Source: Sphingobacteriales bacterium 16-39-50 (GTDB taxonomy: Bacteria; Bacteroidota; Bacteroidia; Sphingobacteriales; Sphingobacteriaceae). From it: DNA of 64,000 bases. Positions within the stretch are counted from its first letter, which is position 1. Each line of letters starts with the position of its first letter. Positions 47 to 2,669 of the stretch are shown piece after piece. The stretch spans positions 62,001 through 126,000 of the forward strand of contig NCHA01000002.1 in the NCBI GenBank assembly GCA_002257025.1, written 5' to 3'. The notes beneath the pieces are model-generated. The model made no database searches and was not told the origin of the DNA. It was given only the letters and a program-made list of their open reading frames with translations. Both the position numbers and the translations under genes were made by a program.

Positions 47-382
47 ATGTTATATACAGTTATTATCCTGGCGATCATTGTTTGTGTTTTATTGGTTCTG
101 ATCATTTTGATCCAAAACCCTAAAGGAGGTGGTTTATCCTCCGGATTTGCGGGCTCAAATAATATTATGGGCGTTCAGCGCACAGGAGATTTTCTGGAAA
201 AAAGTACCTGGATTCTTGCAGTTTCATTAATGGTTTTGGCACTAATGGTAAATGTAGTGGTTCCACGTGGTGGAGTAGTTGACCAGGAAATGAATGACAT
301 TCAAAACCAGATCAATAAGCCTGCTGCTCCTGTTGCCGCACCATCAGGTCTTTCTTTACCAACAGACAGTACTAAAAAATAA
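47..382 (+). CDS. secG: Preprotein translocase subunit SecG
   Basis: SecG is the small accessory subunit of the SecYEG channel in the inner membrane. The 111-residue product has the family layout: a first membrane helix (about residues 3-23), the conserved cytoplasmic loop QNPKGGGLSSGF followed by an FLEKSTW segment, and a second membrane helix (about 55-73). A Pro/Ala-rich tail follows, as is usual in Bacteroidota. It lies directly behind an upstream partial gene and ends before a clear terminator at 403-429. Identification is firm. Confidence 0.96.
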   Translation: MLYTVIILAIIVCVLLVLIILIQNPKGGGLSSGFAGSNNIMGVQRTGDFLEKSTWILAVSLMVLALMVNVVVPRGGVVDQEMNDIQNQINKPAAPVAAPSGLSLPTDSTKK

Positions 383-402: not shown

Positions 403-429
403 AGCCACCTGAACGGTGGCTTTTTTTTT
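403..429 (+). terminator. Intrinsic terminator after secG
   Basis: A 7-bp stem AGCCACC/GGTGGCT with a five-base loop is followed by nine T residues. It separates secG from groES-groEL, which must therefore have its own promoter. Confidence 0.9.
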
Positions 430-437
430 GCATCAAA

Positions 438-553
438 CTGACATTTTACTGACAGCTTGACACCGATGTATTGACAAGAAAGAAGCCTGGCTTATCAAAT
501 AATGAAAATTTGACAAGAAATGTACCCTAAGGCTATTTGGCATAATTCGTGTC
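438..553 (+). promoter_or_regulatory. groES upstream region: five YTGACA repeats and a TGGCATA element
   Basis: Five same-strand copies of (C/T)TGACA occur at 438-443, 449-454, 457-462, 471-476 and 510-515. The last two are extended to TTGACAAGAAA. A TGGCATA box at 538-544 follows, about 60 bp before the groES ATG. TGGCAYR is the -24 half of a sigma-54 promoter, but the matching -12 half here (GTGTC instead of TTGCW) is poor. An alternative Bacteroidota-type reading is TTTG at 509-512 with GCTATTTG at 532-539. The repeats look like activator or repressor sites; the promoter class is unresolved. Confidence 0.4.
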
Positions 554-599: not shown

Positions 600-893
600 A
601 TGGCATTAAATATCAAACCTAGCGCAGACCGGGTAGTTATAGAAGCTGCACCGGCTGAAGAAAAAACGGCTTCCGGACTTTACATTCCTGATACTGCAAA
701 AGAAAAACCTCAAAAAGGTACTGTTGTAGCTGTTGGACCGGGCAAATATGCAGAACAAACCGGCAATTTAATTCCTATGGCTTATAAAGTAGGAGATGTT
801 GTATTATACGGTAAGTATGCAGGAACAGAGATCTCTCATGAAGGTAAAGAATATCTTATCATGCGTGAATCTGATATTTTTGCAACACTATAA
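600..893 (+). CDS. groES: Co-chaperonin GroES
   Basis: This 97-residue protein is the heptameric lid of the GroEL folding chamber. The ATG at 600 gives [15 protein letters not shown], matching family N-termini; an in-frame GTG at 549 would add 17 atypical residues and is not used. The mobile-loop segment ([18 protein letters not shown]) and the core GTVVAVGPG and [11 protein letters not shown] are present. It is followed by groEL after a 135-bp spacer, the normal operon order. Expression is likely heat-shock controlled, given the repeat array upstream. Confidence 0.96.

Positions 894-1028: not shown

Positions 1029-2669
<1,641 letters not shown>

Follow-up and report, generated by a model that had tools for sequence, protein, structure and literature searches.

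Bacteroidota are prominent in the microbial communities of the gut, of soil and of the sea. The genes groESL, dnaK, grpE, clpB and htpG are known to be controlled by the HrcA/CIRCE system and by RpoH (sigma-32). Promoters of the sigma-54 type are silent without an activator, and bacteria frequently encode several sigma-54 activators. One of these, the phage-shock activator PspF, combines an AAA+ domain with a Fis-type helix-turn-helix (HTH), has no N-terminal regulatory domain and serves a stress output; the sites of NorR/GlrR-type activators are dyads that resemble TGTC...GACA.

Chaperone genes of Bacteroidota have been described before as having sigma-54 promoters (PMC9723704, PMC12316311). 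According to the consulted parts of the first paper, promoters of this kind (termed SM4) were located by mapping of transcription start sites (TSS) in F. psychrophilum upstream of groES-groEL, lon, dnaK, grpE-dnaJ, htpG, skp and clpB; induction was seen on blood agar and under other conditions, not after a heat shift, and the chaperone genes fall into three co-expression clusters (B254, B258 and B415), which might reflect distinct activators (PMC9723704). The F. psychrophilum genome resembles the one considered here in that a sigma-54 regulator-lptE unit (THC0290_0733-0732) has locus tags near that of groES (THC0290_0729). It differs in that the promoter of this regulator is of the SM5 type and not the dyad-marked promoter that we find before miaB; the paper mentions three PF00158 proteins and leaves the activator open, and its consulted parts describe no upstream operator (PMC9723704). 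According to the consulted parts of the second paper, the predicted sigma-54 targets of Bacteroidota are enriched in GroEL, GroES, DnaK, DnaJ, GrpE and IbpA, and sigma-54-dependent GroES in B. thetaiotaomicron and GrpE both there and in F. psychrophilum are cited through its reference 80, whereas neither an activator nor an enhancer site is named for the chaperone genes (PMC12316311).

The window, i.e., the whole 64-kb stretch of DNA analysed here (C28:62001-126000 of G000), comes from a genome whose genus is probably Daejeonella (Sphingobacteriaceae). We consider it very probable, judging from sequence, that positions 438-552 of the window constitute the enhancer and the core promoter of groESL, which would belong to a sigma-54 chaperone regulon of Bacteroidota and would be driven, through dyad sites, by a linked sigma-54 activator, P0001. 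The activator, the dyad operator, its phasing and the autoregulation of the activator gene appear to be new, as they were not found in the open-access literature searched.

Repeats, dyads and the promoter element upstream of groES

The regulatory region follows secG (47..382, + strand), and a secG-like ORF was, as judged by reading, the immediate 5' neighbour of groES in 13/20 loci. The intrinsic terminator of secG is a hairpin at 403..421 (+ strand; 7 pairs, 5 of them G-C) followed by a run of T; terminator-like sites numbered 2 (one place, both strands) against 0.6 in shuffles. The groES gene (600..893, + strand; PF00166 match with an E value of 1.5e-32) begins at ATG 600 and has 98 codons including the stop; the ORF list starts its ORF at an upstream GTG, at 549. 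The groEL gene (1029..2669, + strand; a 546-aa ORF) is presumed to share the transcript, and the spacer between the two genes contains, at 896-945 and by eye, imperfect short repeats of the GTCAGAGGTC / CAGACATC type.

An earlier note on this DNA had reported five YTGACA repeats between the secG terminator and groES, and they are indeed present there, on the + strand at 438, 449, 457, 471 and 510, with start-to-start steps of 11, 8, 14 and 39 bp. The + strand of the window holds 36 copies of YTGACA, which predict 0.044 in 78 bp, so the cluster of five is not due to chance (P for five or more is 1.3e-9, uncorrected for how many places were inspected); no second cluster of at least three copies within 78 bp was found on the + strand of the 64-kb window. 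Repeats 2 and 3 pair into a 13-bp dyad of the form TGNCA-N3-TGNCA (dyad 1, the distal one; TGACAGCTTGACA, 450..462), which is two-fold symmetric because the pattern TGNCA equals its own reverse complement, and at which a dimer of the groESL-linked activator is predicted to bind. Repeat 5, together with a degenerate left half, forms a looser dyad with one mismatch (dyad 2, the proximal one; TGAAAATTTGACA, 503..515). The recognition helices of Fis-type dimers are close-set, a geometry that half-sites following each other at a step of 8 bp (about 27 Å) would fit. An exact TGNCA-N3-TGNCA occurs in the 64-kb window at dyad 1 alone.

The genus alignment compares 18 genomes with the window, leaving out G017, where the contig ends, and G011, which has no groES match. 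In this alignment the mean identity is 0.94 at each of repeat 1, dyad 1 and dyad 2, 1.00 at TTGGCAT (537-543) and at the -12 TG, and 0.49 and 0.58 in two spacers. Repeat 1 (CTGACA, 438..443, + strand, 11 bp 5' of repeat 2) retains YTGACA in 14/18 genomes and is an often-kept upstream half-site, dyad 1 is exact in all 18, dyad 2 has at most one mismatch in 17/18, with YTGACA at 510 in 16/18, and TTGGCA is present in 18/18. Repeat 4 (TTGACA, 471..476, + strand) has a mean identity of 0.42 and keeps YTGACA in 3/18 genomes, from which it is judged a chance copy. Repeats 1, 2, 3 and 5 are conserved, and repeat 4 looks like a local accident. The sites upstream of groES are thus kept in relatives, as the earlier note had supposed: four of the five repeats in the genus, and the dyad beyond it. 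Its proposal of multiple activator sites stands as far as the presence of upstream sites is concerned, but the unit is the 13-bp dyad and not five single repeats. The single TGACA repeat was rejected as the unit since it is TGNCA-N3-TGNCA that recurs at groES, dnaK, htpG and grpE, and since repeat 4 is unconserved. On the whole, what the note observed was right and its interpretation, largely right, is partly supported and needs re-drawing.

In three genomes of other families the TGTCA/TGACA half-sites are, by eye, the arms of the apparent secG terminator hairpin (L149 in G040, L151 in G045 and L004 in G042), and terminator and operator seem to be fused there. It could be argued from such hairpin arms before a T run, and from the unconserved repeat 4, that the repeats are chance occurrences or terminator remnants without function. 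Given the footprint, the enrichment and the phasing described below, we find this scarcely credible, and for dyad 1, which is conserved across genera and families, chance is refuted.

The promoter element, TTGGCAT...GTGT, occupies 537..552 on the + strand (GG at 539-540, N10, GT at 551-552), and the sequence from 537 onward reads TTGGCATAATTCGTGTC. It contains the TGGCATA box of the earlier note (538-544), and TTGGCAYAATTNNTG in its exact form has a single occurrence in the whole genome, at groES. The -24 half, TTGGCAT at 537-543 followed by A, agrees with TTGGCAYR including its GG. In the -12 half, ten bases after the GG, the G is in place and the C is replaced by T (GTGT, not TTGC). The weakness of this half had been seen before, and the form turns out to be the usual one, the position being A or T at most of the chaperone promoters of relatives that were examined. 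The groES element is sigma-54-like, i.e., it has the appearance of a sigma-54-dependent promoter, as previously proposed. From the known geometry of sigma-54 promoters, transcription is predicted to start at 564 (+ strand), 12 bp 3' of the -12 element.

The RpoN protein of this genome has 489 aa, with the AID, CBD and DBD domains all present, and RpoN was found in 58/60 relatives, G053 and G027 being the two of the 60 searched genomes with no match. One of these, G053 (C152, C196), listed as 100% complete, keeps the activator orthologue, the miaB operator and the groES TGGCAC element despite having no RpoN match. The absence of a CIRCE element that the earlier note had pointed out is borne out, with 0 matches at up to three mismatches in the window and 0 matches to HrcA in 60 relatives; in contrast to HrcA/CIRCE control, we propose positive control at a sigma-54 promoter.

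Alternatively, TTGGCAT...TG might belong to another sigma factor, either sigma-A, with TGGCATAAT as an extended -10, or an ECF sigma. To the eye TGgCATAAT is similar to an extended -10, the C of the sigma-54 consensus -12 is mostly A or T here, and G053 has the TGGCAC element yet no RpoN match. On the other hand, a sigma-70 promoter for groES was sought and rejected, no sigma-70-type pair being found on the + strand of 300-1030, and the + strand from secG to the start of groES is free of TAnnTTTG promoters, the kind that would have told against the earlier reading. The succession TTGG, A, TG recurs with equal spacing at dnaK and htpG, and the 10.5-bp phasing of the upstream dyads fits an activator-dependent promoter. 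In F. psychrophilum the consulted parts of the TSS-mapping study report -24/-12 promoters at the same genes (PMC9723704). We therefore regard another sigma factor as very unlikely and describe the groES element below as a sigma-54-type one.

The dyad and the element at other chaperone genes and their helical phasing

For groES, which was matched in 59 genomes, 51 upstream sequences were read, the dyad being sought within 220 bp upstream; for dnaK and clpB, 30 upstream regions were read of 41 genomes searched, and for htpG and grpE 24 each. The exact dyad is present upstream of groES in 36/51 genomes, of dnaK in 24/30 and of htpG in 16/24, where one mismatch brings the count to 24/24. Upstream of grpE it is exact in 1/24 and within one mismatch in 22/24, the typical form in the genus being TGACAGCTTGACT, and upstream of clpB these numbers are 2/30 and 13/30. 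In dinucleotide shuffles the dyad is found in 0.2-0.6% of cases when exact (0.6% for the groES set) and in 8-12% at one mismatch. No dyad was seen upstream of groES in G050, G052, G053 and G054, even with one mismatch.

The -24/-12 element was found upstream of groES in 49/51 regions, of dnaK in 30/30, of htpG in 24/24, of grpE in 22/24 and of clpB in 24/30, by a pattern written after the sequences had been seen, which makes the invariance of its fixed letters (e.g., GG) a matter of construction. In G046 and G057 the groES region has TTGGCA and the expected TG is absent. The -12 half is mostly TGA at groES and TTGA or TTGT at dnaK, htpG, grpE and clpB; at the -12 position grpE most often has T and the other four genes most often have A, with C in the minority at all five. 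Among the loci of named relatives, groES was recognised by pattern in 59 of 80, and these have the element in 59/59 cases and the exact dyad in 57/59; the named loci and the 60-genome set overlap, and counts from both are not independent.

The upstream regions of dnaK and htpG, with which a comparison had been suggested, thus carry both dyad and element, and clpB is less clear. We conclude from these sequences that groES, dnaK, htpG and grpE share the dyad and the element and likely form a chaperone regulon, to which clpB is weakly attached; since clpB has the element in 24/30 regions and the dyad is rare there, the gene may depend on a different site or activator. Genome-wide, TTGGCAYAATTNNTG with one mismatch allowed gave 27 matches against 19 in the control, groES alone being exact. 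The pattern TGACA-N8-38-TTGGNA-N6-TTG gave 10 matches against 2 in the control, of which htpG and grpE are real. The other eight were rejected as targets: within 250 bp an ORF start (counting ORFs of 60 aa or more) is found for L322 alone, and it is apparently internal to a larger gene. The regulon list obtained in this way is incomplete, as the pattern misses the TGTCA orientation and non-TTG -12 halves, and with them groES itself.

The distances between dyads and promoter elements were examined for helical phasing in a set in which the window's genus was collapsed, every other genus was represented by one genome, each distance was counted once per gene and only sites upstream of the element were taken. 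For exact dyads within 130 bp (n=38) a period of 10.5 bp was the best of those tried (8-14 bp), with R=0.93, and none of 20,000 uniform draws was as high; these p-values refer to a uniform null and to genera that are related. The dyads start 23-25, 34-35, 55, 66, 76-78, 86-88, 96-98, 107 and 117 bp before TTGG. The phasing is seen with groES alone (n=19, R=0.93) and with dnaK alone (n=9, R=0.89), and with one-mismatch dyads included R is 0.81 (n=100). Because the genera share ancestry, the nine cluster centres, picked by eye, were also treated as single observations, which gave R=0.94 and p of about 1e-5. In the 51 groES regions, 22 one-mismatch dyads are placed 34 bp before TTGG and 4 are placed 45 bp before it. 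The sites have shifted by whole helical turns from lineage to lineage, as expected if the bound protein has to make contact with the polymerase.

The linked activator and its own operon

The earlier note had advised looking for a sigma-54 activator gene just left of the window, and such a gene is found 2 kb away (C28:58786-60021). Its product, P0001, is a 411-aa AAA+ protein with a Sigma54_activat domain (PF00158) at 12-178, an AAA lid at 184-261 and a Fis-type HTH at 373-409; no receiver, PAS or GAF domain was found in it. The gene order, miaB-activator-lptE-hypothetical-secG-groES-groEL, is a recurrent one. The nearest named record of P0001 is from Daejeonella sp. (98% identity). Activators 81-97% identical to that of the window occur in five further records (L194, L199, L200, L203 and L217) entitled Sphingobacterium thalpophilum, Pedobacter schmidteae or Flavihumibacter soli, and some of these titles may be misassigned. 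All 60 relatives have a best match to P0001, with identities of 50-100%; in G041 and G027 this match is partial. The orthologue lies within 6 kb of groES in 49/59 genomes and away from it in 10/59 (G017, G023, G027, G037, G042, G043, G046, G051, G053 and G057).

P0001 resembles PspF in being an AAA+ protein with a Fis-type HTH and no N-terminal regulatory domain. It differs from PspF in its longer linker with a conserved block and in its target genes, and its score of 268.2 bits against the TIGR02974 cut-off of 443.55 means that it is not a PspF equivalog. The groES dyads have half-sites of the TGTCA/TGACA kind, as NorR/GlrR-type sites do, while spacing, protein and genes differ, and P0001 scores 302 with the NorR model PRK05022, whose cut-off is 476. 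Unlike NtrC-type response regulators, P0001 is without a receiver domain, which its two paralogues in this genome have. At least 25 NCBIfam families were matched, and among the matches listed none was over its own cut-off.

The GAFTGA loop has the form GSFTGA in P0001 and in 20/25 orthologues and the form GAFTGA in G037, G047, G053, G057 and G058. In 25 orthologues drawn from across the class, every position of the recognition-helix segment of the HTH, LGISERTLYRKI, is conserved to 95% or more, in keeping with the near constancy of the operator. Between the ATPase and the HTH, the linker is variable save for a block at about 276-301, which is largely invariant in the 25 closer orthologues and well kept across the class, and which we consider, from this conservation, a candidate contact for a regulator. 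In the AlphaFold model of an orthologue the mean pLDDT is 50.8, the HTH alone being near 83 and the linker helix at 279-306 low, and matches in a PDB comparison are confined to the AAA+ part (one extends to residue 313).

It is conceivable that the promoter is a sigma-54 one and that the dyads are bound by a protein other than P0001, either a two-component activator or an unrelated regulator, with the linked activator serving other genes. Several such activators are often present in a bacterium, and PF00158 matches of more than 100 bits number three in this genome: P0001 and two paralogues of more than 200 bits, both of which have a receiver domain, as two-component regulators do. One of the two, a response regulator (L332:655-2034; G000 C1), carries GSFTSA in place of GSFTGA at the sigma-54 contact loop and, to judge from this substitution, may no longer activate sigma-54. 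A PF00158 scan was made in 14 genomes, mostly picked for few activator-like matches in the P0001 search, and in four of them (G010, G013, G017 and G024) exactly one match of more than 100 bits was found, the linked activator, which is there the sole strong candidate. G013 and G024 (100% and 99% complete) have RpoN, and their groES and dnaK have retained exact dyads; with a single PF00158 match of more than 100 bits, they have a sigma-54 promoter and, as far as the search shows, no other activator. As the dyad moreover marks the operon of the linked protein in nearly all named loci, we consider binding by another protein unlikely and P0001 the probable ligand of the dyads.

In the genome of the window the dyad before miaB lies at L143:7062-7074 (C28:57061-57073), 56 bp before the miaB start. 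An exact dyad is found in this place in 73/74 named loci that contain the miaB start and 200 bp upstream, L218 having a near-dyad, and 72/73 of these dyads have a TAnnTTTG or TAnnTTG box after them, i.e., a sigma-A-like promoter, whose TA is 30-34 bp from the start of the dyad in 70 loci and 22-23 bp in 2. Outside the family the miaB dyad is present in 13/16 assessed genomes and in its exact form absent from G042, G043 and G058; the sequence of G056 stops at a contig end, and no miaB was found in the stretch read of G049 or G054. The presence of the dyad at the activator's own operon is, at the level of sequence, the strongest link that we see between P0001 and the dyad.

In 1.0 Mb of named loci there are 150 exact dyads, 73 at groES promoters, 73 at the miaB-activator operon and 4 elsewhere, and 3 of these 4 (L203, L204 and L211) are miaB operators by position and context. 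A set of 93 dyads outside groES, which had resembled a high background, consists almost wholly of miaB operators or unrecognised groES promoters. Besides the groES and miaB promoters a single exact dyad (L221:9879) seems to be left in the 1.0 Mb of L193-L272, against about 13 predicted by composition, a scarcity that perhaps reflects counter-selection.

Since the miaB dyad covers the -33 region of the sigma-A-like promoter, autorepression of the miaB operon is its natural reading, and the activator probably represses its own operon. The same repressor-like position might suggest that the dyads at chaperone genes, too, are operators of a repressor that holds these genes off and not activator sites. 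This appears highly improbable to us: the chaperone dyads counted (upstream sites alone were counted) lie in phase 23-117 bp before the -24 element, no HrcA match was found in 60 genomes, and sigma-54 promoters are silent without an activator. The chaperone dyads are accordingly treated here as predicted activator sites.

A proposed circuit for chaperone control

From the sites, their conservation and phasing and the presence and linkage of the activator gene, all of which were read from sequence, we infer binding, activation, repression, the transcription start, heat induction and sensing along the following lines. RNA polymerase with sigma-54 would wait on TTGGCAT...GTGT at 537-552. Dimers of P0001 would bind through their C-terminal Fis-type HTH to the two dyads (450-462 and 503-515), which share one face of the helix with respect to the promoter, and would assemble there, and their ATPase would open the sigma-54 polymerase complex. 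P0001 would also bind the dyad over the sigma-A promoter of the miaB operon and probably repress it, so that its own level would be held constant. As neither a receiver nor a PAS or GAF domain was found in P0001, it must be controlled from outside. HrcA and sigma-32 are under chaperone-titration control, and, as a guess by analogy with them, the likeliest signal would be free chaperone, perhaps acting via the conserved helix between the ATPase and the HTH. In its fullest form, which we advance tentatively and as a possibility on the doubtful side, P0001 would be a class-wide master heat-shock regulator that turns on groESL, dnaK, grpE and htpG via sigma-54 from dyads on a single helical face, represses its own operon through the same dyad, is kept inactive by free chaperone bound to the linker helix at about 276-301 and is released by unfolded protein.

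In the literature searched no protein appears to be established as the switch for the chaperones of Bacteroidota; the evidence presented here singles out one gene, together with one 13-bp operator and a simple feedback circuit. Such a circuit would explain how chaperones are controlled in bacteria that have no HrcA repressor. If the proposal is true, P0001 is a sigma-54 activator with a housekeeping role in protein quality that occurs in all relatives searched and is apparently the sole strong activator in some of them, and in its fullest form the circuit would represent a positive-acting, chaperone-titrated counterpart to HrcA and sigma-32.
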